Source: Chromohalobacter sp. 11-W
Lineage (GTDB): Bacteria > Pseudomonadota > Gammaproteobacteria > Pseudomonadales > Halomonadaceae
DNA: 64,000 bases
Assembly: GCF_029889905.1 (NCBI RefSeq)
Contig: NZ_JARANZ010000008.1
Coordinates: 124,001 to 188,000 of the forward strand
Direction: 5' to 3'
In this document: positions 8,278 through 41,914 of the stretch, one piece after another
Position numbering within the stretch: position 1 is the first letter of the stretch
How the letters are laid out: every line of letters begins with the position of its first letter
Translations under genes and position numbers: made by a program
The notes under the pieces: generated by a model
Database searches by the model: none
What the model was told of the DNA's origin: nothing
Seen by the model: the letters and a program-made list of their open reading frames with translations, nothing else

Positions 8278-8323
8278 CGTTTGTCGGCCCAATTTTAAAT
8301 ATAACAATATTTTGGAGAACATC

Positions 8324-8434: not shown

Positions 8435-8436
8435 CG

Positions 8437-8461: not shown

Positions 8462-8581
8462 GACTCCTAAACTACCCGGCTGATATTTTTCTTGGCCCGC
8501 GTCCGAGAGGGTGGCGCGGTCCCTTTTTGCCTTTGCCGAGCTCCGGGATTTCCCTTTATTCCAAAAACAAGGACCGACGCC

Positions 8582-21798: not shown

Positions 21799-23178
21799 TT
21801 ACTCGGCGATGTAGACCGTGCGCACGTTGAGGAAGGCGCCGAAGCCATATTCGCTCTGCTCGCGACCGTAACCACTTTCCTTGACGCCACCGAACGGAAG
21901 CTCGGCGAAGGGCGTGGTGGGCTGATTGACGAAGCTCATACCGACTTCGAGACGGCGCGCGACCTGCTCGGCGCGCTTCACGTCCTGACCGACCACGGTG
22001 CCACCCAATCCATAGCGGCAATTGTTGGCCAGCTCGATGGCGTGATCGGCGTCGTCAGCGACGATGACCGAGGCCACCGGGCCGAACAGCTCCTCGTCGA
22101 AGGCCGGATTGCCGGGCGCGACATTGGTCAGCACCGTGGGCGCATACCAGGCGCCGGGGCGGTCGAGTATTTCGCCGCCGGTTTCTAGCTGCGCCCCTTG
22201 TTTGATCGCCCGCTGAACTTGGTCATGGAGATCGTCACGCAGATCCTTGCGCGACATGGGGCCGACCTCGGTATCGCCGTCCATGGGATCACCGATACGC
22301 ATCGTCTGAACACGGTCAATGAGCCGTTCGGTGAAGCGCTCCAGCATCGGGCGTTCCACGATCAGGCGCTTGGAGGCCGCGCAGCTTTGCCCGGTGTTAT
22401 CGAAGCGACCGTTCACGGCCAGTTCCACTGCCTTGTCGACATCGGCGTCGTCGAGCACGATCAACGGGTCGATACCGCCGAGTTCGAGCACGCTGGGCTT
22501 GATGGCATCGCCGGCGATCTTGGCCACAGCGCGACCGGCATCTTCGCTGCCGGTCAGCGTGACGCCGCAGACGAGCGGATCGTGAACGATGCCCTCGACC
22601 TTGTCGGAACCGATCGGTAGCCAGGTGAAGGTGCCTTCCTTGAAGCCGGCGTCATGAAACAGCTTGGTAATGTATTTGGCACAGCCTGGCACGTTGGAGG
22701 CGTGCTTGAGCAGGCAGACGTTGCCACCCGCCAAGTTGGGCGCTGCGAAACGCACCACCTGATAAAGCGGATAGTTCCACGGCATCACGCCGAGTACGGC
22801 GCCCATCGGGTCGTGAACGATTTCGGCCTTTTGAGCGCCTTCCACCTGACGTGATTGGGGTTTGAGCAGGGACTCCAGGTTGTCGGCGTAGAAGCGAACG
22901 ATGGCCGAGGAAATCTGTGTCTCGGCAATCCCCTGGTGGAAGGGCTTGCCCATCTCATGGGCGATGATCTCGGCCATTTCGCGCTGATGCTGGTCGATCA
23001 AGTCGGCCAGTGCGGTGAGCCGTTGGCGACGATCGGCTAACGGCAAGTGGCGGAATTCGGCATAGCCCGCGCGGGCTTGGTCGAGCTTTTCAGCCAACTG
23101 GGCATCGTCGAGCATCTCGTGCTCGCCGAGTACTTGATCGTTGGCGGGATTGACGGCGGTGAGGGTCTTGCGGCTCAT
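21799..23178 (-). CDS. NAD(P)-dependent aldehyde dehydrogenase, Sad/YneI-like
   Basis: Soluble enzyme of 459 residues oxidising an aldehyde to an acid, probably a semialdehyde or short hydroxyaldehyde. The start at 23178 follows AAGGAGGAT; the longer frame has no such site. The cofactor region [16 protein letters not shown], general base VLELGGIDP and catalytic Cys in [11 protein letters not shown] are present, and the end [14 protein letters not shown] is standard. The pattern is close to succinate-semialdehyde dehydrogenase Sad (YneI). As the last gene of the dhaK-dhaL-tal-tkt run it may remove glycolaldehyde or another sugar-derived aldehyde; this is inferred. Confidence 0.85.
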
Positions 23179-23398
23179 GTCATCCTCCTTAACGGGATCG
23201 TCGGCGACGAGTCTTCCCGAGGCAGCCTTCCTGCTTGCCTCACTACTCGTTCTGGCGATGCTGAAGGAGAGAATCAAGGGGTATTTCCATGGCGCCTTCA
23301 TACTCATCGAGCCATGGTGTTTCGAAGCGGCCGCCGATCAGGACGATCGGATCCGGGCAAATGGCGACACGACCTTGGCGGCCATGTCGCCAGGCGGG

Positions 23399-25390
23399 TC
23401 AGTCGAGCAAGGCGCGGGCCTTGTCGATCACGTTTTCGACGGTGAAGCCGAAGTGCCGGAACAGGTCCTCGGCCTTGCCCGATTCGCCATAGCCGGTCAT
23501 GCCGATCACGTTGCCGCGAGGGCCGACGTACTTACGCCAATAGTCGGGATGCGAAGCTTCGATGGCGAGCCGGCGTGTCACCGTGGGTGGTAGCACTGCC
23601 TCCTGGTAATCGGCGTCTTGGGCATCGAATTCGCTGGCGCAGGGCATCGAGACGACGCGGACCTGCCGTCCCTGATCGTTGAGCTGGGCAGCCGCTTCCA
23701 TGGCCAGACCGACTTCCGAGCCGGTGGCGATGAGGATCAACTCGGGCGTGCCCTCGCAATCGTCGAGCACGTAACCGCCGCGTTCGATAGCGGCGAGCTG
23801 GGCGACATCGCGTGCTTGCCCGGGAAGCCCTTGGCGAGAGAACACCAAAGCCGTGGGGCCGTCCTGGCGCTTGAGCGCCGCCAGCCAGGCCACGCTGGTT
23901 TCGGTGGCGTCGCAGGGGCGCCACGTTGCCAAGTTGGGCGTGATGCGCAGCGCATTGAGCTGTTCGATGGGCTGGTGAGTCGGGCCGTCTTCGCCAAGGC
24001 CAATGGAGTCGTGGGTGTAAACGAAGATCACCTGGCGCCGCGCAATGGCGGCCATGCGCACGGCGTTGTGCATGTATTCCATGAACGTCAGGAAGGTGGC
24101 TCCATAGGGAATGAAGCCGCCGTGCATGCTGATGCCGTTCATGATGGCGCCCATGGCGAATTCACGGACACCGTAATGCAGGTAGTTGCCGTCGGGCGCC
24201 TGGGCCGAGATGGCGCGTGCGCCCTCCCAGATCGTCAGATTCGACGGCGCGAGGTCGGCGCTACCACCCAGCAGTTCCGGCAGGCGTGGTCCCAGGTGGT
24301 TGAGCACACCGAGTGAGGCCTTGCGCGAGGCCAGCGTATCGCAGGCTTGCTGGGCGTCTTCGATCAGGGCGCTGCCGCCCAGATCGCCCGGCAGCTCGCC
24401 ACGCCAGCGGCGCTCGAGCTCTGCGGCAAGCTCGGGATACGCCTCGGCGTAGCGCGCGAAGCGTTGGCGCCACTCGTCCTCGGCTTGCTGGCCGGCCGCG
24501 TCGGCGTTCCAGCCCGCGTAAACCTCGTCGGGGACGTGGAACGGCGGGTGTGACCATTCGAGGCGCTGGCGCGCGGCGGCGACTTCATCCTCGCCCAGGG
24601 CGGCACCATGACAGGCGCCGGTGCCCTGTTTGTTGGGCGCGCCGAAGCCGATGACCGTCTTGCAGATGATCAAGGTCGGGCGCTGGTCGTCTTGCGTGGC
24701 GGCGTTGATGGCGTCTTCGATGGCGGCGGGGTCATGCCCATCGACGTCGGCGATGACCTGCCAGTTATAGGCCTCGAAGCGCTTGGCGGTGTCATCGGTG
24801 AACCAGCCCGCGACCTCGCCGTCGATGGAGATGCCGTTGTCGTCGTAAATGACGGTCAGCTTGCCGAGCCCCTGCGTTCCTGCCAGCGAGCAGGCTTCGT
24901 GGCTGATGCCCTCCATCAGGCAACCATCGCCGACGAAGCACCAGGTGCGGTGATCGACGATGTCATGCCCTGGGCGATTGTACTGCGCGGCCAGGGTACG
25001 TTCGGCCAGCGCCAAGCCCACGGCGTTGGCCAGCCCCTGACCCAGCGGGCCGGTGGTGGTCTCGACCCCAGGCGTGTAGCCGAGCTCGGGATGACCCGGC
25101 GTGCGTGAATGGAGCTGGCGAAACTGCTTGATGTCGTCGATGGCCAGGTCGTAGCCGCTGAGATGCAATAGCGAGTACAAGAGCATCGAACCATGCCCGT
25201 TGGAGAGCACGAAACGGTCGCGGTCGGGCCAGGTCGGGTTGCCGGGGTTGTGTTTTAGATGGTCGTTCCACAGCACTTCTGCGATATCGGCCATACCCAT
25301 CGGCGCGCCGGGATGGCCGGAATTGGCTGCCTGCACGGCATCCATCGACAGGGCGCGAATGGCATTGGCTAGCGTGAAGCGAGAGGGCAT
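23399..25390 (-). CDS. tkt: Transketolase (copy 1, in the polyol operon)
   Basis: Thiamine-diphosphate enzyme of 663 residues moving two-carbon units among sugar phosphates (including erythrose-4-phosphate plus xylulose-5-phosphate). The thiamine motif [13 protein letters not shown]...DNGISIDG lies near residue 155, the N-terminal [20 protein letters not shown] is typical, and [19 protein letters not shown] sits near 470. GGAGGAG precedes the ATG. It is a same-length paralogue of the gene at 50082-52073, placed here with transaldolase, apparently a pathway-dedicated copy. A 220-base gap separates it from the aldehyde dehydrogenase. Confidence 0.95.
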
Positions 25391-25415
25391 CGGTATCTCC
25401 TCCGTGAGCGATGAT

Positions 25416-26372
25416 TCAGTTAGCGAGCCGGTCGGCGATCAAGTCCTCGAGACAGGCCTGGTCGTCGGCGAAGCGACGAATGCCTTCGGCCAGCTTGTCG
25501 ATGGCCATGGGGTCTTGGTTATGCTGCCAGCGAAAGGTGTTTTCCTCTAGGGGAGGGGCAGGCTGCGCCTCGGGATGCGTGAAGCGGACCTTGGCGTCGA
25601 CATCACCTTCGCGTGCCTCGAGCGTTTCCAGCAAGGCGGGGGAGATCGTCAGTCGATGACAGCCGGCGAGGGCGAGGACTTGCTCCGGCGTGCGGAAGCT
25701 GGCCCCCATGACGACGGTGTCGTAGCCACCCTGGTCGGCGCGCTCGCAGACCTGGCGCACGAACCGTACGCCGGGATCGTCCTCCGGGGAGAACGTTTGC
25801 TCGGTTTCTTTCTGATACCAGTCGGTGACACGCCCCACGAAGGGTGAAATCAGGAACACGCCGGCATCGAAGCAGGCCTGCGCCTGAGCGTCGCTGAACA
25901 GGAGCGTGAGGTTGCACTGGATGCCCTCGCGCTCGAGCACCTCGGCGGCGCGGATGCCCTCCCAGGTCGAGGCGAGCTTGATCAAGATACGCTCGCGGCC
26001 GATACCCAGTGCCTCGTAACGCGCCACCAACTCATGGGCCTTGCGGATACTGGCCTGGGTATCGAACGAGAGCTTGGCGGCGACCTCGGTGGAGACGCGT
26101 CCCGGAATGAGTTGGGCGACCTCGCTGCCTATGCCTACCGAGAGTCGATCGACGATGCGCTCCAATTGGTCGGTGTCATGTGGCTTCTCGTCACGCGCCT
26201 CTTCCAGGATCCGCTCGATCAGTGGCTGATAGCCGGGCAGCTCGAATGCCTTGAGGATCAAGGAAGGATTGGTGGTGGCATCGATGGGCCGATAACGTTC
26301 GATGGCGGCTGGGTCCCCGGTATCGGCGACCACTTGCGACAGTGCCTTGAGTGAGTCGAGCTGTGAAACCAT
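25416..26372 (-). CDS. tal: Transaldolase
   Basis: Enzyme of 318 residues, type TalB, moving the dihydroxyacetone unit between sedoheptulose-7-phosphate and glyceraldehyde-3-phosphate to give erythrose-4-phosphate and fructose-6-phosphate. The opening [12 protein letters not shown] and the Schiff-base lysine in [13 protein letters not shown] (about residue 130) are clear. It is 25 bases before transketolase in the same operon. Pairing tal with tkt implies the substrate enters as a tetrose or pentose phosphate. Confidence 0.95.
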
Positions 26373-26471
26373 GTTGTGCTCCGCCGCAGTATGCGGGCGT
26401 GAAGGCCCACGACGTGCCAGGTAGCGTCGGGGCGAGAAAATGGAAGGGACCGAGCGAGCGGCCGCCAGTAC

Positions 26472-27125
26472 TCAGGCGGCGGCTTTTTCCAGGCGGCGTT
26501 CGGTGCTATCGGCCAATCGGGTCAGCAGCAGGCAGCATGACACTGCGCCGGCATCCAGATGGCCACACGAGCGTTCGCCGAGGCGTGCCGCGCGCCCGAT
26601 CTTGGCTTCCAGGTCGAGCGTCGAATCGCGTCCCTGCTGGGCGCCGTTGCGCAATGCCTGCAGCGCATTCGGGAAATCGTCGCTGACCTCGATGGCCTGA
26701 CGGTAGCTTTCGATGGCCGGCACCAGGGTGTCGAGCAGGCACTTGTCGCCGACCTTGGCATCGCTGATCTGTTCGAGCGCTTCGCGTCCATCGGACAGCA
26801 TGTCGCCGAAATCCTTGGCGTCGAGGACGTTCTTGTCCTTGACCGATTTGGCCATGCCCATGAAGAGGCTGCCATAAAGCGGCCCCATCGAACCGCCGAT
26901 CGAGCCCATCAAGGTCGTGGCGAGCGTGCCCAGCGCCTTGGAAAGCGACAGCGATTGGCCGGCGACCGATTCCCCGCAAAGCCGAAACCCCTTGGCCATG
27001 TTAATGCCGTGATCGCCGTCGCCGATCGCGCCGTCGACGTCGCTCAGGTATTGGCGGTTGTCGACGATGACCTCGACCAGCTCCTCGAGAATGTCCCTGC
27101 CTTGAGTCGCGTCCAGAACTTGCAT
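26472..27125 (-). CDS. dhaL: Dihydroxyacetone kinase-type subunit DhaL
   Basis: Nucleotide-binding subunit of 217 residues, all-helical barrel. The metal-ADP motif is GAIGDGDHGINMAKGF near residue 35; TTLMGSIGGSMGPLYGSLF near 90 is the glycine-rich loop. It is 27 bases after dhaK. In the PTS type, DhaL needs DhaM as phosphate donor, yet no dhaM or PTS gene is visible here, so this pair may use ATP. Substrate may be erythrulose rather than dihydroxyacetone given the neighbours. Confidence 0.9.
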   Translation of the reverse strand: MQVLDATQGRDILEELVEVIVDNRQYLSDVDGAIGDGDHGINMAKGFRLCGESVAGQSLSLSKALGTLATTLMGSIGGSMGPLYGSLFMGMAKSVKDKNVLDAKDFGDMLSDGREALEQISDAKVGDKCLLDTLVPAIESYRQAIEVSDDFPNALQALRNGAQQGRDSTLDLEAKIGRAARLGERSCGHLDAGAVSCCLLLTRLADSTERRLEKAAA

Positions 27126-27152
27126 GATGAGTCTCCGTGGTAGCGGTTCCGA

Positions 27153-28145
27153 TCAGCGTTGCGTGATGGCCAGCGAGCGTGCCGGGGCGTCCAGTAGCGG
27201 TTTGAGCTCGTCGTCGAGCTTCATCAGCGTGAGCGTGGCGCCCATCATCTCCAGCGAGGTGAAGTAATTGCCGATGTCCGTACGATGCACGCGAATATCG
27301 GCGCCTTCGAGCCGTTCGGCGATGTGCGCGTAGAGGATATTGAGTTCCATCACCGGCGTGGCGCCAAGCCCGGAGATCAACACCGCCACCTCGCTGCCGG
27401 CGAAGTCTTGGTCGGCGAGAACGGGGTCGCACATGGCCGTGGCGATGGCCTCGGCACTGGTCAGCGGCGCGACTTCTATTCCCGGTTCGCCGTGGTGGCC
27501 GATGCCGAGCTCCATGTGGCCGGGCTCGATCGAAAAGTTGGGCTTGCCATTGGCGGGGATGGTGCAGCTACTCAGCCCGACGCCGATGCTCGAACACGCA
27601 TCGACGGCTTTTTGCGCCAGGCGAATGACCTCGTCGAGACTATCGCCGCGGGCCGCTGCCGCGCCGCCGATTTTCCACATCATCACCTCGCCGGCCACGC
27701 CGCGCCGCTTGTCGCGCTCCGCTGCCGGTGCCGAGGCCACATCGTCGCGTGCAATCACCGTCTTGACCTCGATGTCTTCCATCTCGGCCATCTGCTTGGC
27801 CATCTTCACGTTCATGTTGTCGCCCGCGTAGTTGCCGTAGAGGCAGGCGACACCCTGCTCATGGGGGGCGGCACGAAAGGCTTCGAGGAATGCATCGGCG
27901 GTAGGCGACGAGAATATCTCGCCGATGGCCACCGCATCACACATTCCTTCACCGATATATCCCAGGAAGGCGGGTTCGTGGCCGGAACCGCCACCGGTGA
28001 CGATGCCGACCTTGTCGCTGGGGCTGTCCGGGTACTTGAGAACGCGCGGGTGGTCGGTGGCGACAAACAAGCTCGGCGAGGCGCGCAAGTAACCTTTGAT
28101 GGCATCGTCTACGACGTTGTCGGGGTCATTGATGATGCGTTGCAT
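27153..28145 (-). CDS. dhaK: Dihydroxyacetone kinase-type subunit DhaK (possible erythrulose kinase)
   Basis: Substrate-binding subunit of 330 residues. The start at 28145 follows AGAGGAA; the frame running back to 28580 is not supported. Hallmarks are GIVTGGGSGHEPAFLGYIG near residue 48, YGNYAGDNMNVKMAKQMAE near 105, and the histidine that binds the keto group covalently in MELGIGHHGEPGIE near 210-220. DhaK homologues phosphorylate dihydroxyacetone or, in tetritol loci of Mycobacterium, D- or L-erythrulose. It heads the minus-strand operon and is divergent from the RpiB-like gene. Confidence 0.9.
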   Translation of the reverse strand: MQRIINDPDNVVDDAIKGYLRASPSLFVATDHPRVLKYPDSPSDKVGIVTGGGSGHEPAFLGYIGEGMCDAVAIGEIFSSPTADAFLEAFRAAPHEQGVACLYGNYAGDNMNVKMAKQMAEMEDIEVKTVIARDDVASAPAAERDKRRGVAGEVMMWKIGGAAAARGDSLDEVIRLAQKAVDACSSIGVGLSSCTIPANGKPNFSIEPGHMELGIGHHGEPGIEVAPLTSAEAIATAMCDPVLADQDFAGSEVAVLISGLGATPVMELNILYAHIAERLEGADIRVHRTDIGNYFTSLEMMGATLTLMKLDDELKPLLDAPARSLAITQR

Positions 28146-28225
28146 GGCGTATTCCTCTTGTTCGTTGTGGCCGACGGCGTGGCGATCCGACACCTGGGAT
28201 GGTGGCTTATATAATGATCTTTCAC

Positions 28226-28456
28226 TGAACAGATGTTTAGGCTTGGGGCCCAAGGCTGTCAAGGCATGGTCGGTGTCGGCGCCTGAGACTTTGGTCGTGA
28301 ATAAGAGGCTTGAAAGCGTCATTTCAAGATATATATTTGAAATATAAGCTTTTTTATTTCTTTCCTTGGAAGCTGGATTATCGGGTGTTCGAGGCTTGAC
28401 CTGACTTTTCGTGATCAAGAATTTTACAAATGTTCGGTTAGTGATATTTTGAACAT
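28226..28456. promoter_or_regulatory. Divergent regulatory region between dhaK and the RpiB-like gene, three dyads
   Basis: The 371-base gap (28146-28516) holds three inverted repeats: TGAACA-GA-TGTTTA (28226-28239), ATTTCAA-N9-TTGAAAT (28321-28343) and ATGTTC-N15-GAACAT (28430-28456). The TGAACA/TGTTC half-sites recur on both sides, which suggests one regulator, most simply the SorC-type protein encoded at 29103. The region is AT-rich and otherwise has no gene. Confidence 0.5.
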
Positions 28457-28516
28457 AGCGCGAACGGTAACAGCATGCCGATCGCAAGCGGGAGGAATCA
28501 TCACGGGAGACAATAC

Positions 28517-29011
28517 ATGTCAGACTCAAGAGGTCGCGCGCCGGCAAAGCGCATCGCACTGGGCGGCGACGAAGCCGCATTCGAGCTCAAGGCTTTGCTG
28601 ATCGAGCACATTCGCGCTCTGGGATATGAGCCTGTCGATTACGGCACCTATAACGCCGAGCCGGTGCTGTACCCCGATGTGGCGGTCAAAGTGGCGCGCG
28701 CCATCGACTCGGGAGAGGTGGCGCAGGGAGTGCTGGTCTGTGGGACCGGCATAGGCGTAGCGATTTCAGCCAATAAGGTGCGCGGGATTCGTGCCGCTCA
28801 GGCGCATGACACTTATTCGGCTGCCAAGGCGCGCTCGAGCAACGATGCGCAAATCGTGACGCTCGGCGCCCGTGTGGTCGGCCCGGAGCTGGCCAAGGCC
28901 GTGGTGACGACATTCCTGGAAACCGAGTTCGGCGGTGGCGGCTCGCGCGCCAAGATAGAGCGTATTGCCGAGTATGAGAAGGAAGCCTTTCGCGACTCCC
29001 CGAACGTCTGA
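28517..29011 (+). CDS. RpiB/LacAB-family sugar-phosphate isomerase
   Basis: Protein of 164 residues. The RpiB fold is shown by RIALGGDEAAFELKALL at the N-terminus, DYGTYNAEPVLYPDVAVKVA and the active-site cysteine in VLVCGTGIGVAISANKVRGI. RpiB interconverts ribose- and ribulose-5-phosphate; close homologues in tetritol loci turn D-erythrulose-4-phosphate into D-erythrose-4-phosphate. The latter fits the kinase, transaldolase and transketolase across the divergent promoter. The ATG at 28517 follows GGGAGA. The next gene is its likely regulator. Confidence 0.85.
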   Translation: MSDSRGRAPAKRIALGGDEAAFELKALLIEHIRALGYEPVDYGTYNAEPVLYPDVAVKVARAIDSGEVAQGVLVCGTGIGVAISANKVRGIRAAQAHDTYSAAKARSSNDAQIVTLGARVVGPELAKAVVTTFLETEFGGGGSRAKIERIAEYEKEAFRDSPNV

Positions 29012-29102
29012 TCGTTAAGAGTACGCCTGTTCGCTGTGGTATCTTGTGCGCGTCGCCCGAAGTGGACCGGAACCGGGAAGCGGATCGTATGAGGCTAGTG
29101 CC

Positions 29103-30083
29103 ATGAGTGAACGTGTCGAGAGCGCCGAAGTCGCGCTGATGACTGAAATCGCCTCTCTGTATTATGTGGAGGGCGAAACCCAGGAGGCGATCGCCAACCG
29201 GCTGGGGATTTCCCGGGTCAAGGCGGGCCGGCTTTTAAAACGCGCGCATGCCGAAGGGATCGTCGATGTGCGGGTGCGCCAGCACCCGGCGGTGAGTGCC
29301 GAACTCGAACAGGCGCTGATCCGGCGTTTCGGTATCAAGCGCGCCTTGATTGCGCTCGACCACACCGAGCCTGACGTTCAACGTTCCGGTGTGGCCAGCC
29401 TGGTGGCCGATCATCTGTCGCGCGAGCTGCACGATGGTTCGATCGTGGCAGTGGGGATGGGGCGTAACGTGGGCGCGGTGGCCGATAATGTCTTCGAGCA
29501 AGGCGAGCGCAAATGCTCGTTCGTGTGTGCCATTGGCGGCTCGCTGCGTGCCGGCGAATACATGAACCCCGACCATATTTGTCGTCGCCTGGCGGTGAAG
29601 TATGGCGGTGAAAGCGAAACGCTTTATGCCCCGGCGCTGGTGCAGAACCCGGCGTTGCGCGATTCGATGTATGAAAACCCTACCGTGCGCCAGACGTTGG
29701 ACAGGGCGCGCCGCGCGGATATCGCGATGATCGGCGTCGGCGATCTCAGTGAGGACAGCAACATGGTACGCATGGGCTGGTTCACGCCGCAGGAAATCGC
29801 CGAGGCGCGCCTCTCGGGTACCGTTGGGGACATGATGGGGTACGACTTCATCGACATGCATGGTCGGCCATCGGAAACGCCCATGCAGGGTCGGGTCATT
29901 GGCTTGACCATCACGGATCTGGCGCGGATTCCCGATGTGGTGGCGATCGCCAGCGAAAACACCAAGGCGGCGGGGATCCTGGGGGCACTGCGTACAGGCG
30001 TCATCGATACCTTGGCCACTAGTGTGACCAACGCCCATACCATCCTGCGCTTGGATGAGGCGACCACCTCAACGGCGAGCTAA
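29103..30083 (+). CDS. SorC/DeoR-type sugar-binding transcriptional regulator
   Basis: Regulator of 326 residues. The N-terminal helix-turn-helix (ASLYYVEGETQEAIANRLGI, then SRVKAGRLLKRAHAEGIVDV) is followed by the SorC sugar-binding domain (VGMGRNVGAVADNV near residue 120, then IGGSL and VGDLSEDSNMV). Members sense phosphorylated sugars. The start at 29103 leaves a GAGG site 8 bases upstream. It is 91 bases after the isomerase gene and probably co-transcribed. Its likely targets are the dyads around dhaK and the one before the dehydrogenase at 30370. Confidence 0.9.
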   Translation: MSERVESAEVALMTEIASLYYVEGETQEAIANRLGISRVKAGRLLKRAHAEGIVDVRVRQHPAVSAELEQALIRRFGIKRALIALDHTEPDVQRSGVASLVADHLSRELHDGSIVAVGMGRNVGAVADNVFEQGERKCSFVCAIGGSLRAGEYMNPDHICRRLAVKYGGESETLYAPALVQNPALRDSMYENPTVRQTLDRARRADIAMIGVGDLSEDSNMVRMGWFTPQEIAEARLSGTVGDMMGYDFIDMHGRPSETPMQGRVIGLTITDLARIPDVVAIASENTKAAGILGALRTGVIDTLATSVTNAHTILRLDEATTSTAS

Positions 30084-30110
30084 GTCAAAGTGTCGCCGAT
30101 TGCCGTGCAG

Positions 30111-30155
30111 AGCCGTTCATATGAACACTAATGTGTTTATGTGAACGGCTTTTTT
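30111..30155 (+). terminator. Intrinsic terminator after the SorC regulator
   Basis: An 18-bp stem (AGCCGTTCATATGAACAC with GTGTTTATGTGAACGGCT, two G-U positions) with a TAAT loop is followed by six T. The left arm contains the palindrome GTTCATATGAAC, so the site could double as a regulator target upstream of the dehydrogenase. Confidence 0.85.
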
Positions 30156-30312
30156 GTGCAGGCTTTCTTTTTCTCCTTACACTCTGCGGGCGTTAGCTTT
30201 CGCAGGGACCTCTATAAAGTTTATTATTTTCAGCAGCTTAAAAAGCAATCCTAAAGTATAAGGCGAAAAGGTCGCCGACTGCATTGACCTGGCTATACTG
30301 AAAAGCGTTAAT

Positions 30313-30339
30313 TCATTTGAGCAACAAAAGATCAAATGA
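30313..30339. promoter_or_regulatory. Operator-like dyad upstream of the polyol dehydrogenase
   Basis: TCATTTGA and TCAAATGA are perfect 8-base complements separated by 11 bases, centred about 45 bases before the dehydrogenase start. Placement between terminator and gene suggests a repressor or activator site for the dehydrogenase-transporter operon, presumably for the SorC protein. Confidence 0.55.
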
Positions 30340-30369
30340 TAAATAAGCGCCAGCTCAATGGAGGCCGTC

Positions 30370-31470
30370 ATGAACGATACGCCCACCCCATCCCCCGACA
30401 TCCCCGACACGATGCGTGCCATCGTCGCCTACGCACCGGAAGACTATCGACTGGAAAACGTTGCGGTCCCTGGTATCGGTGAAAAGGAGATTCTGGTCAA
30501 GGTCGAGGCCTGTGGCATCTGTGCCGGTGACCTCAAGGCTTATGAAGGTGCGCCGAGTTTCTGGGGCGACGAGGAACAGCCTGCCTATATCAAAGCGCCG
30601 ATGATTCCAGGGCACGAGTTCATCGGGCATGTCGTCAAGATGGGCCCCGGTGCGACGGGTTTCGAGATCGGGGATCGGGTCATTTCCGAGCAGATCGTGC
30701 CGTGCTGGGACTGCCGCTTCTGTCATCGCGGCCAGTACTGGATGTGCGAGAAGCACGACGTGTATGGCTTCCAGAATAACGTCAACGGCGGCATGGCCGA
30801 GTACATGAAGTTTCCCAAGGAAGCCATCAACCACAAGCTGCCAGACGATGTGCCGGTGGAAAACATCGTGCTCACCGAGCCGTTTTCCTGCTCGATGCAC
30901 GCAGTGGAGCGAGCGCAAATCCAGTTGGGAGATATCGTGGTGCTCTCCGGTGCCGGCACCCTGGGGCTGGGAATGATCGGCCCGGCCAAGAAGTCCGGTC
31001 CCGCCAAGCTGGTGGTGCTCGATCTTCACGGTGAACGCTTGGAACTGGCCAAGAAATTCGGCGCCGATGTGGTGCTTAATCCAGCTGACGAAGATGTCGT
31101 TCAGATCGTCAAAGACATGACCGACGGCTATGGCTGTGACATCTACATCGAAGCGACCGGTGCACCCAAGTCGGTGGAGCAGGGGCTGGCGATGTTGCGC
31201 AAGCTGGGACGCTTCGTGGAGTTCAGCGTGTTCAAGGATCCGGTGACGGTCGATTGGAGCATCATCAGTGATCGCAAGGAGCTTGACGTGCTGGGTTCGC
31301 ATCTGGGGCCTTACTGCTACCCACACGTGATCGAGGGTATCGAGAGCGGTGACTTCCCCACCGAGGGTGTGGTGACCCACAAGCTGCCATTGGCGGATTT
31401 CCACAAGGGTATCGAGCTGATGAGGCACGACAGCAGCGCACTCAAGATCATTCTCATGCCCGGGGCGTGA
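30370..31470 (+). CDS. Zinc-dependent polyol dehydrogenase, probable erythritol/threitol dehydrogenase
   Basis: Medium-chain dehydrogenase of 366 residues. Catalytic zinc ligands are in ACGICAGDLKAY and PGHEFIGHV; four structural-zinc cysteines are in CWDCRFCHRGQYWMC. The Rossmann part shows VVLSGAGTLGLGMIG near residue 200. The N-terminal half (APEDYRLENVAVP, then FWGDEEQPAYIKAPMIPGHE, SEQIVPCWDC) resembles the erythritol/L-threitol dehydrogenase of actinobacterial tetritol loci. It would make erythrulose in the cytoplasm. A GGAGG site favours the ATG at 30370 over 30358. It is the first gene of the transporter operon. Confidence 0.8.
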   Translation: MNDTPTPSPDIPDTMRAIVAYAPEDYRLENVAVPGIGEKEILVKVEACGICAGDLKAYEGAPSFWGDEEQPAYIKAPMIPGHEFIGHVVKMGPGATGFEIGDRVISEQIVPCWDCRFCHRGQYWMCEKHDVYGFQNNVNGGMAEYMKFPKEAINHKLPDDVPVENIVLTEPFSCSMHAVERAQIQLGDIVVLSGAGTLGLGMIGPAKKSGPAKLVVLDLHGERLELAKKFGADVVLNPADEDVVQIVKDMTDGYGCDIYIEATGAPKSVEQGLAMLRKLGRFVEFSVFKDPVTVDWSIISDRKELDVLGSHLGPYCYPHVIEGIESGDFPTEGVVTHKLPLADFHKGIELMRHDSSALKIILMPGA

Positions 31471-31558
31471 TGTCGCGATGTCCTGCGTGACGACAACAAT
31501 CGTCATCCGGCGCGGGACTTTATCACCACTCATCAGCGACGCCAGGGGGCGCTTCATC

Positions 31559-32209
31559 ATGACTTCAAATACGGCCGCCATGCCTACGAAACGATGGCGA
31601 AAAGGGCGCGGTAGGGCGGTAATGATCGGCGTTGCGGTCGTCCTGCTTGCCGTCATGGCCTGGGATACCACGGTGGTGCCGATCGGCGCGGAAGAGGAGC
31701 AGGAAGGCGCGAAAATGGCACGCTTCGCCGAAGAAGAATTTCCCAAGATTCGCGACGATGTCGAGGCGCGTGCCGTCGATATCGAGCAGCTTTCCAGTGC
31801 AATTGCCGACGACCAGAGCGCGGCGGGGGAAAAATACGGCGTGCCAGGCGGCGTCGGGCCGATCATGCCCGTCACCTTTACCGGTGTGGTGGGAGACGGC
31901 ACGTCCGGGACATATGAGGTCAAGGCTGACGGGGCGCCCGATGACCTCGTGGTACGGGTTCAGACCGGTCCGGCCATCAATGGTACCGACCTGCGGGATG
32001 CCACTGGAGAAATCGAGTTCGGTCAATTCAAGAATCAGATCGAATATCAGAATGCGGGCGCCGCTCTGAACGATGCCATGAAGGCCCAGGTGCTATCGGA
32101 TATCGATACACAAGGCCTGCAAGGCAAGACCGTGACGGTGACGGGTGTGTTCCAGTTGATCAATCCGAATAACTGGCTCGTGACGCCGGTCGACTTTAGC
32201 GTGGAATGA
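31559..32209 (+). CDS. DUF2291 family membrane-anchored protein
   Basis: Protein of 216 residues with one hydrophobic segment (VMIGVAVVLLAVMAWDTTVV, about residues 21-40) after a basic N-terminus. The rest is probably periplasmic and includes PVTFTGVVGDGTSGTYEVKA and the C-terminal FQLINPNNWLVTPVDFSVE, features of DUF2291. The family is found next to ribose-type ABC importers for sugar alcohols; its job is unknown. The stop overlaps a possible ATG of the ATPase gene by four bases. The ATG at 31559 is preferred over 31478 because it follows AGGGGG. Confidence 0.8.
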   Translation: MTSNTAAMPTKRWRKGRGRAVMIGVAVVLLAVMAWDTTVVPIGAEEEQEGAKMARFAEEEFPKIRDDVEARAVDIEQLSSAIADDQSAAGEKYGVPGGVGPIMPVTFTGVVGDGTSGTYEVKADGAPDDLVVRVQTGPAINGTDLRDATGEIEFGQFKNQIEYQNAGAALNDAMKAQVLSDIDTQGLQGKTVTVTGVFQLINPNNWLVTPVDFSVE

Positions 32210-32226
32210 GCCGGAGGCTTGATGCG

Positions 32227-33774
32227 ATGAACGAACATGCAACCAGTCAAGAAGGGACGCTAGGAAAGGTGATCCTGTCGGCGCGTAATATCGCCAAGTC
32301 ATTCGGTAATGTTCATGCGTTGAAGGCCGTGAATTTCGATGTTCACTACGGGCAAGTGACGACGCTTTTCGGTGAGAATGGCGCGGGAAAATCGACGTTA
32401 ATGAAAATTCTCTCGGGTGTCATGCAGCCATCCTCGGGGGAAATCGTTCTCGAAGGCGAGCCGGTTCGCTTCTCTTCGACCACGGAGGCGCAGCGCCAGG
32501 GGATATCGATCATTCACCAGGAGCTTAGCTTGGCGCCCAATTTGAGCGTCCGCGATAACGTCTTCATGGGCCGTGAAATCGTCGGCAAGGGCGGCGTCGA
32601 TTATGCGGAGGAGGCGCGTCAGACGCGCCAACTCATGGAAGAACTGGATGAACCCATCGATCCACTCACGCCTGTGGAAGATCTGCGTCTCGGGCAGCAG
32701 CAGATCGTCGAGATTGCCCGTGCGTTATCCGTCAATTCGCGCATTTTGATCATGGATGAGCCGACTTCGGCATTGAGCGCCTCGGAAGTCGAGGTGCTGT
32801 TTCGCGTGATTCGTGACCTGAAAAGCCGTGGTGTTTCACTCGTATATATCTCCCACCATCTCGAGGAAGCCCTGACCATTACCGACCATGCTGTGGTATT
32901 GCGCGATGGTCGGATGACGGCCTATGCCGCGCGTCAGGAGATCGATCTCGAGTGGATCGTACGCAACATGGTGGGAGAGAACTTCGATCTTGGTTCCCCG
33001 CCGGACGGGTACGCGATGGGGGATGCCGTGCTGTCGATCGAGGGCATCACCATTCCCGATGTATCGGTGCCCGGACGCGCCGTGGTCGATGACGTGTCGT
33101 TGAGCGTACGTGCCGGCGAGATCGTCTGCATCTATGGGTTGATGGGGGCGGGCCGCACCGAACTGCTTGAAAGCGTGGCAGGACGTGGCGGTATGAGTGC
33201 GGGCCGAGTCCTGCTGCATGGTGAGGACATCTCGCGGCTGAGTATCGCGGAGCGTATCGAAAAAGGCCTGGTGTTGGTGCCGGAGGACCGCCAGCGCGAT
33301 GGCCTGGTACAGACGATGTCGGTGGGCGAAAACCTGTCGCTTGCCAGCATCGGTGCCTTTACCAAAGGGCTACTGACATCGCGTGGGCGTGAGCGTCACG
33401 TGGTGCGGGAATCGATCAGCAATGTCCACATTAAGACTGACGGCTCTGCAGCCTCCATCGGGTCGTTATCCGGGGGCAACCAGCAGAAAGTCGTGATTGG
33501 CAAGATGATGGCGACGCATCCCCGGGTCGTGCTGCTCGATGAACCCAGCCGAGGTATCGATATCGGTGCCAAGGCCGAGGTCTTCAGGCTGCTGAGTGAG
33601 GGGGCGGCGCAACAGGGCCTGGCCGTGGTGTTCTCGACCTCGGAAGTCGGCGAATGCCTGAGTATTGCCCATCGTATCGTCGTCATGAGCCGTGGCCGGA
33701 TTGCGGCCGAATTCGGTGCCGATGCCAACAAAGAAGAGATTATGGCTGCCTCGGGCGAGGCCGTGGTCGCTTGA
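32227..33774 (+). CDS. Sugar ABC transporter ATP-binding protein (RbsA/XylG type)
   Basis: Double ATPase of 515 residues. The N-terminal half has Walker A GENGAGKST near residue 50 and LRLGQQQIVEIARAL, ILIMDEPTSAL; the C-terminal half has a degenerate Walker A (GLMGAGRTELL) and LSGGNQQKVVIGKMM, VVLLDEPSRGIDIG, as in RbsA. GGAGG precedes the ATG at 32227. An ATG at 32206 overlapping the DUF2291 stop is possible. It powers the permease encoded next. Confidence 0.9.
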   Translation: MNEHATSQEGTLGKVILSARNIAKSFGNVHALKAVNFDVHYGQVTTLFGENGAGKSTLMKILSGVMQPSSGEIVLEGEPVRFSSTTEAQRQGISIIHQELSLAPNLSVRDNVFMGREIVGKGGVDYAEEARQTRQLMEELDEPIDPLTPVEDLRLGQQQIVEIARALSVNSRILIMDEPTSALSASEVEVLFRVIRDLKSRGVSLVYISHHLEEALTITDHAVVLRDGRMTAYAARQEIDLEWIVRNMVGENFDLGSPPDGYAMGDAVLSIEGITIPDVSVPGRAVVDDVSLSVRAGEIVCIYGLMGAGRTELLESVAGRGGMSAGRVLLHGEDISRLSIAERIEKGLVLVPEDRQRDGLVQTMSVGENLSLASIGAFTKGLLTSRGRERHVVRESISNVHIKTDGSAASIGSLSGGNQQKVVIGKMMATHPRVVLLDEPSRGIDIGAKAEVFRLLSEGAAQQGLAVVFSTSEVGECLSIAHRIVVMSRGRIAAEFGADANKEEIMAASGEAVVA

Positions 33775-33801
33775 TCCACTTATAAAGCGGAGATAATCAC
33801 A

Positions 33802-34953
33802 ATGTCTGATGTCAGCCAAGATAACGACAATGAGAGAGGCAAGCTATTCGGCGGCGATTTCGATATAAAGCGCATGCTTCTGGAGGGGCGTGCGTTCTTC
33901 GCCTTGATCGCGATCATTGTCATTTTCTCGATTCTTTCCCCTGTCTATTTCTCGACCAGTAATTTCCTGACCATGTCGTCTCACGTCGCCATCTTCGGGT
34001 TGCTATCGCTCGGGATGCTGTTGGTCATCCTGACGGGCGGCATCGACCTTTCCGTGGGCTCGACGCTTGGCCTGGCAGGTGTCTTCGCAGGCTTTCTGAT
34101 GCAAGGCGTGTCTTTCGAAATACTGGGCGTCGTGTTCTATCCCCCCGTATGGGTCGTGGTCATTCTGACGTGTGGACTGGGCGCTCTGGTCGGTGCCATC
34201 AACGGTGTGCTCATCGCATATTTCAAGGTGCCCGCCTTCGTGGCGACCCTGGGGCTCTTGTACGTGGCCAGAGGCGTCGCCCTACTGATGACCAACGGCC
34301 TGACCTATAACAATCTGGGCGGTAGCCCTGAGCTGGGTAACACCGGATTCGACTGGTTGGGCTTCAATCGATTGTTCGGGGTTCCGGTCGGTGTCCTGAT
34401 TTTGGCGGCCGTGGCGATCGCCTGCATCCTGCTGCTGGCGCGCACGCCGTTTGGGCGTTGGGTGTATTCCACCGGCGGTAACGCCCGTGCCGCAGAGCTT
34501 TCGGGCGTACCGGTCAAACGCGTGCAAGTGCTGGTGTATGTGCTATCAGGCATTTGCGCGGCCATCGCCGGGTTGGTGCTGTCATCCCAGCTGACGTCGG
34601 CAGGGCCGACGGCCGGGACGACCTATGAATTGACCGCGATTGCCGGTGTCGTCATCGGCGGTGCGGCACTCACCGGTGGCCGCGGCAATGTGCGCGGCAC
34701 TTTGCTGGGGGCCTTCGTGATCGGGTTCCTCTCCGATGGTCTGGTCATCATCGGGGTTTCTTCCTACTGGCAGACCGTGTTCACCGGGGCCGTCATCATT
34801 CTCGCGGTCTTGCTCAACAGCATTCAATACAGCGGTCGGAAGAAGCAGCAAGCCTCTTCCGATGGCAAGACGACTTCGCCGCAACCGGAGAGCGCCGTTG
34901 AGCGTTCGCCGGCCTCGGGAAGTACTGCCGGTAAAGCCGGTACACAATCATAA
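33802..34953 (+). CDS. Sugar ABC transporter permease (RbsC type)
   Basis: Inner-membrane permease of 383 residues with about 9-10 hydrophobic segments. Family stretches include ILTGGIDLSVGSTLGLAGV near residue 75, KVPAFVATLGLLYVARGVA, GGNARAAELSGVPVKRV and IGGAALTGGRGNVRGTLLGA. A hydrophilic serine/threonine-rich tail of about 40 residues follows the last span. It is 27 bases after the ATPase and 18 before the receptor. Confidence 0.9.
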   Translation: MSDVSQDNDNERGKLFGGDFDIKRMLLEGRAFFALIAIIVIFSILSPVYFSTSNFLTMSSHVAIFGLLSLGMLLVILTGGIDLSVGSTLGLAGVFAGFLMQGVSFEILGVVFYPPVWVVVILTCGLGALVGAINGVLIAYFKVPAFVATLGLLYVARGVALLMTNGLTYNNLGGSPELGNTGFDWLGFNRLFGVPVGVLILAAVAIACILLLARTPFGRWVYSTGGNARAAELSGVPVKRVQVLVYVLSGICAAIAGLVLSSQLTSAGPTAGTTYELTAIAGVVIGGAALTGGRGNVRGTLLGAFVIGFLSDGLVIIGVSSYWQTVFTGAVIILAVLLNSIQYSGRKKQQASSDGKTTSPQPESAVERSPASGSTAGKAGTQS

Positions 34954-34971
34954 GAGTAAAGGTGGTCGATT

Positions 34972-35928
34972 ATGTTCATGAAAGGAAAACGCCTGCTGAT
35001 AGCTGCACTGGCCGTGAGCGCGCCGCTCTTCGCGGGTGGGGTCGCGGCTCAGGACGAAGGACGTATCTCCATTATCGTCAACGACACCTCCAACCCCTAC
35101 TGGTTTACTGAGGGTAAGATCGCCCGAGAGACGGCCGAAGAATTGGGGTATGAGGCCAACGTGAACTCGCACAAAGGAGACACCAACACCGAGAGCAATC
35201 AGATCGATACGGCGATCACCAATCAGGCAGAGGCCATCATTCTCGACCCAGCCAATGCCGATGGCTCTATTGGGGCGGTACGCAAGGCCGTCGATGCGGG
35301 TATCCCGGTGTTTATCATCAACGCCGAAATCAACGAGAAGGGGCTGGCCCAGGCGCAGCTCGTCTCGAACAACGCCCAGGGTGCGGCGCTTGGGGCACAG
35401 CAGTGGATCAAGAGCGTCGGCGATTCGGCAAGCTACGTGGAACTCAAGGGTGCGCCTTCGGATAATAACGCCGCCACCCGTTCCAACGGCTACGAAACCG
35501 TGCTCAGCCAATATCCCGGCCTCGAGCGGGTCGGCGTCGATGTCGCCAACTGGGATAGAACCCAGGGCTTCAACAAGACGCAGAGCATGTTGCAGGCCAA
35601 CCCCGACATCGATGGCGTGATCAGCGGTAACGACGAGATGGCGCTGGGCGCGATCTCAGCCTTGAAGGAGGCCGGTAAGCTCGATGATGTCGTCGTGGGG
35701 GGCTTCGATGGTTCGCCCGACGCGGTCGAGGCGGTAAAAGCCGGTGAGATGGAATATACCGTACTGCAGCCGGTGGCCATCTTCTCTGAAATGGCGGTGC
35801 GTATGGCGGATAAATACATCAAGAACGGTGATACCGGCATCGACGGCGAGAAGAAGCTCTTCGACTGCTTCCTCATCACCGCGGACAACGCCGATCAATA
35901 TACCGACCCGTTCGTGCTTAAGCAGTAA
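34972..35928 (+). CDS. Sugar/polyol ABC transporter substrate-binding protein
   Basis: Periplasmic receptor of 318 residues (ribose-binding type, Peripla_BP_4). The signal peptide is KRLLIAALAVSAPLFAGGVA with cleavage near VAA-QD. The mature N-terminus reads ISIIVNDTSNPYWFTEGKIA; GVISGNDEMALGAISALKEA and VVGGFDGSPDAVEAVKAGEM are family motifs. Receptors of this family beside DhaK/RpiB genes were reported to bind tetritols; the ligand here is inferred from that context. A bidirectional terminator follows at 35944. Confidence 0.9.
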   Translation: MFMKGKRLLIAALAVSAPLFAGGVAAQDEGRISIIVNDTSNPYWFTEGKIARETAEELGYEANVNSHKGDTNTESNQIDTAITNQAEAIILDPANADGSIGAVRKAVDAGIPVFIINAEINEKGLAQAQLVSNNAQGAALGAQQWIKSVGDSASYVELKGAPSDNNAATRSNGYETVLSQYPGLERVGVDVANWDRTQGFNKTQSMLQANPDIDGVISGNDEMALGAISALKEAGKLDDVVVGGFDGSPDAVEAVKAGEMEYTVLQPVAIFSEMAVRMADKYIKNGDTGIDGEKKLFDCFLITADNADQYTDPFVLKQ

Positions 35929-35992: not shown

Positions 35993-37057
35993 TTACGAGA
36001 CCTGCGGCTTCAACTCGCCGCTTGCGTAACGCTCGAACATGCGTTCGAGGTTGAGCGGGGCGATCTTGCTGGCCTGGCCGGCGGTGCCGAAAGCTTCGAA
36101 GCGCTGGATGCACACATCGCGCATGGCGGTGACGCTTTCCTTGAGGAACTTGCGCGGATCGAATTCGCTGGGGTTCTCGGCCAGGAAACGACGTACCGCA
36201 CCGGTGGACGCCAAGCGCAGGTCGGTGTCGATGTTGACCTTGCGCACGCCGTGCTTGATGCCTTCGACGATTTCCTCGACCGGGACGCCATAGGTCTCGG
36301 GAATCTCGCCACCGTGAGCGTTGATGGTCTCCAGCCATTCCTGCGGTACAGAGCTTGAGCCATGCATCACCAGGTGCGTGTCGGGGATACGCGCGTGGAT
36401 CTCCTTGATGCGCTGGATGGAGAGAATGTCGCCGGTCGGCGGCCGCGTGAACTTGTAGGCGCCGTGGCTGGTGCCGATGGCGATGGCCAGGGCGTCGACC
36501 TGGGTGGCGGCGACGAACTGTGCGGCCTCTTCCGGGTCGGTCAGCAGCTGGCTGTGATCCAGCGTGCCTTCGGCGCCGACGCCGTCTTCCTCGCCGGCCT
36601 GGCCGGTTTCCAGCGAGCCCAGGCAACCCAGCTCGCCTTCCACCGAGACGCCACAGGCGTGCGCCATTTCCACCGCGCGACGGGTGACGTCGACGTTATA
36701 GGCGTAGTCGGCGGGGGTCTTGCCGTCTTCCTTGAGCGAGCCGTCCATCATCACCGACGAGAAGCCGAGCTGGATGGAGCGCTGGCACACGCCGGGGCTG
36801 GTGCCATGGTCCTGGTGCATGACCACCGGGATATGTGGAAATTCTTCCACGGCGGCCTGGATCAGATGACGCAGGAAGGGCGCGCCGGCGTATTTGCGGG
36901 CGCCCGCGGAGGCCTGGACGATCACCGGCGAGTCGGTGCGGTCGGCGGCCTCCATGATGGCACGCATCTGTTCCAGGTTGTTGACGTTGAACGCGGGAAC
37001 GCCGTAGGCGTGTTCGGCGGCGTGGTCGAGCAGTTGACGCAGGCTGATCAGAGCCAT
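35993..37057 (-). CDS. fba: Fructose-bisphosphate aldolase, class II
   Basis: Zinc-dependent aldolase of 354 residues, the Calvin-cycle-type subgroup. Metal/substrate motifs are [12 protein letters not shown] near residue 80, [29 protein letters not shown] in two adjacent stretches near 130-150, [11 protein letters not shown] and [12 protein letters not shown]. It is the last gene of the minus-strand epd-pgk-fba run. A second aldolase of class I is encoded at 40862. Confidence 0.95.
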
Positions 37058-37085
37058 GGGGAGTGTGATTCCTCTAGAAGTACAA

Positions 37086-37103
37086 GGCGGCCCGCAGGCC
37101 GCC
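37086..37103 (-). terminator. Weak hairpin between pgk and fba
   Basis: GGCGGCC and GGCCGCC pair around a four-base loop in the 116-base gap between pgk and fba. Only a short TT follows on the minus strand, so it may attenuate rather than stop transcription. Confidence 0.4.
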
Positions 37104-37173
37104 GATCGTGACGTAGTGGCTTGAGTAGTTAGTTATAATTCGTAGTTATAAGTCGTGCCGTAGTGAGTCAGGC

Positions 37174-38337
37174 CTATCGGGAGGCGGCTTCGAGCGCCGC
37201 CACGGCGGGGAGTTGCTTGCCTTCCACGTATTCGAGGAAGGCGCCGCCGCCGGTGGAAATGTAGGAGACGTCATCGGCAACGCCGTACTTGTCGATGGCC
37301 GCCAGGGTGTCGCCGCCACCGGCGATCGAGAACGCCGAACTGGCGGCGATGGCACGCGAGAGCGTCTCGGTGCCCTTGCCGAACTGGTCGATCTCGAACA
37401 CGCCGACGGGGCCGTTCCATAGGATGGTGCCGGCGTTTTCGAGCAGCGCGGCGAAGCGCTTGGCGGTATCCGGGCCGATGTCGAGGATCATGTCATCGTC
37501 GTTGAGCTGGTCGACCGGCTTCACTTTGGCCTCGGCCTGCTCGGAGAATTCGGTGGCGACCACTACGTCGGAAGGCAGTGGAATATCGACCTTGGCCATG
37601 AAGGCCTTGGCTTGATCGACCAGGTCCGCTTCATGCAGCGACTTGCCGACGTTGTAGCCCGCGGCGGCGATGAAGGTGTTGGCGATGCCGCCGCCGACGA
37701 TCAACTGGTCGCACTTTTCGGACAGTGCGGTGAGCACGTCGAGCTTGGTGGATACCTTGGAGCCACCGACGATGGCCAGCATCGGGCGTGCCGGCGTGGC
37801 CAGCGCCTTTTCCAGCGCGTCGAGTTCGCCTGCCAGCAAGGGGCCCGCACAGGCGGTGGGTGCGTATCGCGCCACGCCGTGGGTCGAGGCCTGGGCGCGA
37901 TGCGCGGTACCGAAAGCGTCCATCACGTAGACATCGCAGAGCGCGGCGTAGGTCTTGGCCAGTGCCTCGTCGTCCTTCTTCTCGCCGGTGTTGTAGCGCA
38001 CGTTCTCGAGCAGCACCACCTCACCCTCGGCGATATCGACGCTGCCGTCGAGATAGTCCTTTTCCAGGCGTACCTCGCGGCCCAGCAGCTTGCCGAGGTG
38101 CGTCGCCACCGGGGCGAGCGAGAATTCATCGGCGGGCTCGCCTTCGGTGGGGCGGCCCAGGTGGCTCATCAGCATCACCCGAGCGCCGGCATCTAGCGCG
38201 GCCTGGATGGTCGGCAGGCAGGCGCGCAGGCGCGCGTCGCTGGTGACTTGGTCGCCCTTGATGGGCACGTTGAGGTCTTCACGAATCAGTACACGTTTTC
38301 CGGCGAGATCCAGATCGGTCATCTTGCGCACGTTCAT
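37174..38337 (-). CDS. pgk: Phosphoglycerate kinase
   Basis: Glycolytic kinase of 387 residues, the family's normal length with the start at 38337 ([20 protein letters not shown]). Signatures include [59 protein letters not shown] and the nucleotide-contacting GGGDTLAA. It follows epd by 11 bases and precedes fba. It transfers phosphate between 1,3-bisphosphoglycerate and ADP. Confidence 0.95.
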
Positions 38338-38348
38338 GGGCGTGTTCC

Positions 38349-39440: not shown

Positions 39441-39578
39441 GGACAGACGCTCGGGAGCCCCGCTTCGACAGTGAAACGCCGATGTTAGCGCAGTTACGCC
39501 CTGCTTGCCCAAGACCGCGTGACGTGGGCATGACATGACACGATTCAGCTAGGGAGTTCATGCCACCGCAGGCGAGGT

Positions 39579-40861: not shown

Positions 40862-41914
<1,053 letters not shown>

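Follow-up and report, generated by a model that had tools for sequence, protein, structure and literature searches.

We analysed a 64,000-nucleotide stretch of the genome of Chromohalobacter sp. 11-W, referred to here as the window, and conclude that a locus of twelve genes at positions 21799-35928 very probably serves the utilisation of erythritol, which three enzymes would convert to erythrose-4-phosphate (E4P). This reading draws on gene families, gene order, conservation, the kinship of the importer with EryEFG and the exchange of the middle enzymes among relatives; what the enzymes act on and produce, which phosphate donor they use and how the locus is regulated are all deduced from these sequence features. 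In the proposed pathway, an EryEFG-type ATP-binding cassette (ABC) importer would take up erythritol, a zinc dehydrogenase would convert it to D-erythrulose, DhaK together with DhaL would form D-erythrulose-4-phosphate, probably with ATP, and an RpiB-like enzyme would turn this intermediate into D-erythrose-4-phosphate, which a dedicated transaldolase and transketolase would channel into the pentose phosphate pathway. A SorC-type protein probably senses a sugar of the pathway and controls both divergent units of the locus. A first-pass annotation had proposed a tetritol locus tied to the pentose phosphate pathway, and this proposal is supported by the EryEFG-type importer and by its placement beside classical erythritol genes in two relatives.

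Kinship of the importer with erythritol transporters

The importer is encoded on the plus strand by a DUF2291 gene (about 31559-32209, start inferred; PF10054), followed by the genes for a double ATPase (32206-33774; PF00005 in two stretches), a permease (33802-34953; PF02653) and the periplasmic receptor of a ribose-type (CUT2) importer (34972-35928), which we classify as EryG-type and predict to be an erythritol receptor. The early assignment of a ribose-type ABC importer with DUF2291 was thus borne out, and receptor identity together with gene order placed it in the EryEFG type. Among the 30 matches listed, the receptor was 73.0-74.2% identical over 318/318 residues to receptors of Rhizobium, Shinella and Paracoccus, the R. 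leguminosarum records among them giving 73.0-73.3%. For a survey of erythritol loci, the cut-off was set at 73% identity to R. leguminosarum EryG (PMC3599248); the window receptor reaches this value at its very edge, with the window protein as query, whereas the survey queried with EryG. According to that report, eryEFG is required for growth of R. leguminosarum on erythritol, a hypothetical gene opens the eryEFG transcript, and every genome listed in Table 2 with EryG also has EryA and EryB (PMC3599248). Judging from locus L032, we infer that this hypothetical gene is the DUF2291 gene.

Two regions around related receptors, in Paracoccus and R. ruizarguesonis, were opened with their gene tables and proved to be erythritol-type loci, with FGGY kinase, glycerol-3-phosphate (G3P) dehydrogenase-like, TIM-barrel and SorC-type genes in the arrangement of an erythritol locus. 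The DUF2291 gene precedes those for the ATPase, permease and receptor in the window, Rhizobium and Paracoccus loci alike, and the window permease (73%) and ATPase (73-77%) are close to their R. ruizarguesonis and Paracoccus counterparts. The receptor is closer still, at 85-86% identity, to the receptor that adjoins EryA and EryB in two relatives of one genus, G013 and G036. Solved receptors were more distant, the closest being 5ibq (52-53% identity, 279 bits), while 4rs3 and 4rsm, which we take to be mycobacterial receptors, scored 120 and 114 bits. We rejected apiose as the substrate on the basis of 52% identity to 5ibq versus 73% to the receptors of erythritol loci. Taken together, the kinship of the importer points to erythritol as the predicted imported substrate.

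The structure model of the DUF2291 protein had a mean pLDDT of 85, and its best fold match in the PDB was 2f4i, the T. maritima protein TM0957 (E 3.8e-9), which presumably belongs to a ribose importer operon. No cysteine, and hence no lipobox, occurs from residue 28 onward; the model suggests a membrane-anchored OB-fold accessory of the importer. The receptor gene of the Halomonas-type loci is followed by a gene of the PfkB/ribokinase family (L039:15586-16491; also L033, L040, L043 and L127), to which the Chromohalobacter loci searched had no match.

Enzymes and layout of the locus

EltD and LerK have been reported to convert erythritol to D-erythrulose-4-phosphate and L-threitol to L-erythrulose-1-phosphate, with LerI and DerI leading on to E4P (PMC10733421). 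Since D-erythrulose-4-phosphate is then converted to E4P by DerI, the erythritol branch can do without LerI, and the window has a candidate for each of the three parts of this branch, namely, a dehydrogenase, a DhaK-type kinase and an RpiB-type isomerase. The zinc-dependent dehydrogenase (30358-31470, plus strand; PF08240/PF00107) is predicted to give D-erythrulose from erythritol, its stereochemistry being the weakest step of the pathway. The closest named relatives of this enzyme are from Chromohalobacter (96-98% identity). In a tree of 53 rows picked from 106, in which the program flagged some long branches, it fell into a clade, here clade 1, that was separated from clade 2 with a support of 100/99. 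Clade 2 includes a Providencia protein annotated as erythritol/L-threitol dehydrogenase, 54.5% identical to the window enzyme.

The kinase is split into a DhaK-type subunit (27153-28145, minus strand; PF02733), predicted to act with DhaL as a D-erythrulose 4-kinase, and a DhaL-type subunit (26472-27125, minus strand; PF02734, TIGR02365 over the cut-off), which has the motif GDGDHGIN. DhaK keeps the motifs GSGHEP, NYAGD and GHHGEPG, and their catalytic histidines and aspartate align with those of solved phosphotransferase system (PTS)-dependent DhaK. The two-gene kinase of the first-pass annotation, with both families and their motifs in separate genes, stands, its substrate being a prediction from sequence. 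A search of the own genome for DhaM (TIGR02364) gave no match at E ≤ 0.1; as a control, the same model was run on 14 genomes and matched in four of them, namely those of E. coli, B. subtilis, L. lactis and Haloferax, three of these matches being over the cut-off. Because DhaM was not found in the genome, ATP is the likely phosphate donor. In a tree of 36 rows picked from 93, the window DhaK lay within a group of 16 split kinases from several phyla (support 100/100), and the fused kinases of Halomonas and Salinicola formed a separate ten-row group (100/100). The own genome also encodes a second kinase, a fused Dak1-Dak2 protein (G000:C38:67447-69096, equal to L130:9447-11096) that is only 34% identical to the Salinicola kinase and whose gene sits between an oxidoreductase gene and an open reading frame (ORF) without Pfam match.

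The RpiB-like isomerase (28517-29011, plus strand), which would convert D-erythrulose-4-phosphate to D-erythrose-4-phosphate, matched the NCBIfam DerI model below its cut-off. When 30 selected rows were placed in a tree, it grouped with the RpiB of the G036 EryA/EryB locus (71% identical) in a nine-row group (97/98), while the second RpiB of the genome, 42% identical to that of the window, was on a long branch. The predicted outlets for E4P are the transaldolase (25416-26372, minus strand; TIGR00874 over the cut-off), which would also recycle it and has a lysine at position 132, presumably the catalytic one, and the transketolase (23399-25390, minus strand; TIGR00232 over the cut-off), which shares 74% identity with another transketolase, encoded at 50082-52073. 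The last gene of the minus unit encodes an aldehyde dehydrogenase (21799-23307, minus strand), whose best NCBIfam match, NADP-dependent succinic semialdehyde dehydrogenase, was under the cut-off. The first-pass annotation had counted it as a pathway member; it is present, and found in eight of the nine Chromohalobacter loci where its place is readable (it was not found in G008, C. marismortui), but it lies outside the conserved core, occurring near only 2 of 80 related dehydrogenase genes (best 80 of 584). We thus regard it as accessory.

All genes named in that annotation exist: the twelve are open frames without internal stops, and their families were assigned by family models. They do not form the single operon once supposed but fall into divergent units, with dhaK-dhaL-tal-tkt-aldh on the minus strand, separated by gaps of 25-99 bases, and rpiB, sorC and then adh-DUF2291-ABC on the plus side. 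Three starts had to be reconsidered. A 475-residue ORF at 27153-28580 is overlong: its Dak1 match begins at residue 163, and the DhaK models match from residue 146 onward, so that the DhaK start is most likely at 28145. The RpiB-DhaK fusion hinted at by this ORF was rejected, as its first 145 residues match nothing in Pfam and RpiB has a gene of its own. Since an upstream stop is present in most of the other Chromohalobacter copies, the DUF2291 start was placed downstream of that of the longest ORF, and the true start of the aldehyde dehydrogenase may be later than annotated because its PF00171 match opens only at residue 45. Dehydrogenase and receptor genes were both present in all ten Chromohalobacter genomes, the own genome counted, and the block of 11 genes from receptor to transketolase had an identical order in 10/10, although in G003 the transketolase gene runs off the contig, whose end also cuts the place of the aldehyde dehydrogenase.

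Exchange of enzymes in relatives and alternative readings

In a survey of 58 related genomes, in which the importer was called at E 1e-110 or better (66-100% identity), 18 carried the importer. Sixteen of these had a window-type dehydrogenase (at least 75% identity), and the other two, G013 and G036, had EryB instead. The window-type dehydrogenase occurred in 16 of the 58 genomes, all 16 with the importer, and in 0 of the 40 genomes without it (Fisher p 1.9e-12, with species that are not independent); the dehydrogenase search listed 18 genomes, including G013 and G024, whose matches belong solely to the second clade, at about 53%. Beside the importer, G013 and G036 carry EryB, EryA and TpiB (L139, L140, L144 and L145). 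In G036, the neighbours of the importer matched EryB (57-81%, two pieces), EryA (44%), EryD (43%) and TpiB (56%), and the same neighbourhood matched the window in RpiB (71%), transaldolase (70%) and transketolase (67-75%, two pieces). Near the TpiB gene of L140 lies a PF01261 TIM-barrel gene (8121-9134) that had no BLAST match to Rhizobium EryC. The own genome gave a best match of 25% for EryA, and its matches to the EryB of G036 reached only 46-48% and are presumably GlpD-like.

Because G036 pairs a window-like importer, RpiB, transaldolase and transketolase with EryA, EryB and TpiB, uptake and the E4P end appear to be kept while the middle enzymes are swapped. The simplest reading of these sequences is that import and the E4P end are common and are served by two non-homologous middle routes. 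The two separate kinase groups indicate that the kinase was swapped even inside the dehydrogenase route. We consider it reasonably probable that erythritol catabolism in the Halomonadaceae is made of exchangeable blocks, with a fixed importer, often accompanied by RpiB, transaldolase and transketolase, and a middle consisting either of EryA/EryB/TpiB or of the dehydrogenase with split DhaK/DhaL or with a fused Dak from a different lineage. The window would then represent the three-enzyme route, shorter than the best-known one of related bacteria, with an ATP-dependent, two-gene D-erythrulose 4-kinase.

We then looked at the neighbourhoods of the best 80 of 584 dehydrogenase relatives in named genomes, 58 of them loci with full flanks; the counts are lower bounds, because contig ends cut the flanks in 22 loci. 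DhaK was near the dehydrogenase in 66 loci, RpiB in 65 and both in 63 (49 of the 58 with full flanks), across 30 named genera, mostly of Bacillota and Pseudomonadota. Transaldolase was near in 16 and transketolase in 31, while EryA (at least 50%) and EryC were near in none of the 80. An EryG-type receptor (at least 60%) was near in 21 loci, and 36 loci had nearby a major facilitator superfamily (MFS) transporter like that of Salmonella or Pseudalkalibacillus; 23 had neither, and none had both. With other transporters, the enzyme core was found in Serratia, on Klebsiella plasmids, in Listeria, staphylococci and bacilli; Klebsiella and Salmonella plasmids bear the module with an MFS transporter, and among 5,426 complete genomes of E. 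coli, a single one had similar dehydrogenase DNA, on a plasmid. The core of dehydrogenase, DhaK, DhaL and RpiB is thus not peculiar to halophiles, being found in Bacillota and Enterobacterales as well.

The first-pass annotation had named erythritol and both threitols as candidate substrates. Erythritol stood and D-threitol is possible; L-threitol was rejected for the window, because its use would require an L-erythrulose-1-phosphate isomerase (LerI) and no second triosephosphate isomerase (TIM)-family gene was found in the genome. The locus of the only one also contains an ORF that was identified by eye as GlmM-like, a housekeeping setting, and nine of the ten Chromohalobacter genomes have one TIM-family gene each. 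In the tenth, G006, a further TIM-family gene forms a cassette with those for RpiB and a fused-type Dak (L117:634-3200); the cassette comes in addition to the window-type locus and lies about 11 kb from a second, clade-2 dehydrogenase (L116:10235). Such RpiB/fused-type Dak/TIM cassettes occur in six of the 58 relatives (G006; L121, L123, L136, L138 and L141), five of them with a clade-2 dehydrogenase, and probably represent an L-threitol/L-erythrulose arm. In a first count, a second TIM gene was present in 6/6 genomes with a clade-2 dehydrogenase versus 3/52 others (Fisher p 2.1e-6), but that of G013 and G036 is the TpiB of the EryA/EryB route and that of G029 adjoins FGGY and G3P dehydrogenase-like genes. 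The cleaned count of the cassette, made post hoc on species that are not independent, gave 5/6 versus 1/52 (p 7.7e-6).

These counts also bear on a route that we consider unlikely, in which the dehydrogenase would yield L-erythrulose, DhaKL would form L-erythrulose-1-phosphate, and the L-to-D step ahead of RpiB would fall to the housekeeping triosephosphate isomerase or to some unrecognised enzyme. Salinicola loci with a window-type dehydrogenase do have a TIM-family gene (near in 4 of the 80 loci, all Salinicola) and a fused kinase, and evolved formaldehyde-cycle strains are described as having required both LerI and TpiA mutations, but the erythritol branch described in the same work passes via D-erythrulose-4-phosphate (PMC10733421), and the single TIM gene of nine Chromohalobacter genomes, with its housekeeping setting in the window's genome, argues against such a step. 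Equally improbable in our view is a locus whose main substrate is D-threitol, another C4 or C5 polyol or a branched sugar (for example of the apiose type), with erythritol as a minor one. The three enzyme steps would suit D-threitol equally well, and the receptor shares 52% identity with 5ibq, an apiose/ribose binder; however, it shares 73% with the receptors of erythritol loci, the importer is coupled to EryA/EryB in related genomes, and Table 2 of PMC3034673 records C. salexigens as positive for erythritol and negative for adonitol. A formaldehyde/dihydroxyacetone cycle, in which the alcohol dehydrogenase would produce formaldehyde, transketolase would form dihydroxyacetone for phosphorylation by DhaKL and transaldolase, transketolase, RpiB and fructose-bisphosphate aldolase (FBA) would regenerate the acceptor, has every enzyme type at hand, with fba, pgk and gap adjoining, but is highly improbable, as it leaves the sugar importer and its link to EryA/EryB unexplained and as the transketolase passes the ordinary model TIGR00232.

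Several observations weigh against erythritol as the substrate and the three-enzyme route as its fate. The RpiB-like protein scored 151 bits with NF051858 (DerI, Rhizobium type), short of the cut-off of 240, the other RpiB of the genome scoring 108. The dehydrogenase lies outside the clade of the Providencia protein annotated as EltD, in a tree that does not contain M. smegmatis EltD itself. DhaK, RpiB or both were not within the flanks of 17 of the 80 surveyed dehydrogenase loci (9 with full flanks). The search for EryC in the own genome gave no match but was run without a positive control, and the contig of G013 starts within a transketolase match, leaving the place of RpiB and transaldolase beside its importer unreadable. 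The presence of the locus in C. salexigens is deduced from the ten congeners. The structures 5ibq and 4ry0 (52%) are of an R. etli receptor in complex with D-apiose or D-ribose. This species is itself said to be without an erythritol locus (PMC3599248).

Regulation, phenotype and known systems

The SorC/DeoR-type sugar-binding protein (29103-30083, plus strand; PF04198) is the predicted local regulator and shares 28% identity with its counterpart in the erythritol locus of R. ruizarguesonis. We aligned the intergenic regions 28146-28516 and 30084-30357 from Chromohalobacter, Modicisalibacter and Aidingimonas, using 10 and 9, respectively, of the 12 available rows. A non-coding block between dhaK and rpiB (28423-28455), a candidate operator or promoter, was mostly kept in the 10 aligned loci of these three genera, and a block ahead of the dehydrogenase gene (30282-30341), which holds the inverted repeat TTCATTTGA...TCAAATGA, was near-invariant in the 9 loci. 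The pattern of this repeat occurred once in the window versus 0 expected. As an operator word common to both regions, GATCARATGWTWA was rejected, being present as a single copy in the window and genome-wide. Scans of promoters and terminators against shuffles gave no excess (4 versus 5.1 expected and 13 versus 11.2 expected). Erythritol genes or a related cassette lie near at least one of fba, pgk and gap in Chromohalobacter, Modicisalibacter, G023, G024 and G029 (window 35993-39536; L037, L136, L137 and L141), a vicinity that may be a preferred insertion site. A class I fructose-bisphosphate aldolase (40862-41914) is encoded close to the class II enzyme (35993-37057).

We take EC 2.7.1.27 to denote erythritol kinase. 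The metabolic model of C. salexigens used erythritol only once reactions including EC 2.7.1.27 were added (PMC3034673). The locus offers genes for the growth of Chromohalobacter on erythritol and suggests that the chemistry differs from the reactions added to the model. Halomonas HL-93 has been reported to grow on erythritol, and its consortium was predicted to use erythritol and to have an erythritol ABC transporter (PMC5507952); some of the gene set may already be annotated in the supplement of that work. We found no description of the gene set, or of a three-enzyme version with a two-gene kinase, in the open-access literature, judged largely by titles and the starts of abstracts; the importer type and the chemistry are known, and it is their combination that looks new. 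An importer that stays in place while the enzymes behind it are swapped provides a clean case for the study of pathway replacement. In addition, the results predict a short erythritol module in many bacteria, in some of them plasmid-borne. Such a module would guide the naming of genes at present labelled alcohol dehydrogenase, DhaK or RpiB, and engineered tetrose metabolism could draw parts from it.

Compared with known systems, the window shares with the ery locus of Rhizobium and Brucella (eryABCD, eryEFG, tpiB and rpiB) the EryEFG-type importer with DUF2291 (Rhizobium and Paracoccus), a SorC-type regulator, an RpiB-type last isomerase and E4P as the product, but it is without EryA, EryB, EryC and TpiB and instead has a dehydrogenase, DhaKL and its own transaldolase and transketolase. 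The tetritol pathway of Mycolicibacterium smegmatis (EltD, LerK, LerI, DerI and a D-threitol branch) likewise starts with a dehydrogenase and ends in E4P, and we assume that its kinase is a fused member of the DhaK family and its isomerase of the RpiB family. In the window, by contrast, the kinase is split into two genes, no LerI-type isomerase was found, transaldolase and transketolase are added, and the receptor is much nearer to EryG than to the solved 4rs3 and 4rsm. The split DhaK/DhaL and its active-site motifs resemble those of the PTS-dependent dihydroxyacetone kinase DhaKLM, from which the window differs in that no DhaM was found in its genome. The plasmid clusters of Klebsiella and Salmonella, arranged as ADH-MFS-DhaK-DhaL-SorC and RpiB-tal-(tkt) (L029 and L027), share the dehydrogenase (74%), DhaK (66%), the regulator family, RpiB and transaldolase, with transketolase in L029, whereas an MFS transporter replaces the ABC importer and L027 adds a short-chain dehydrogenase/reductase (SDR) enzyme.

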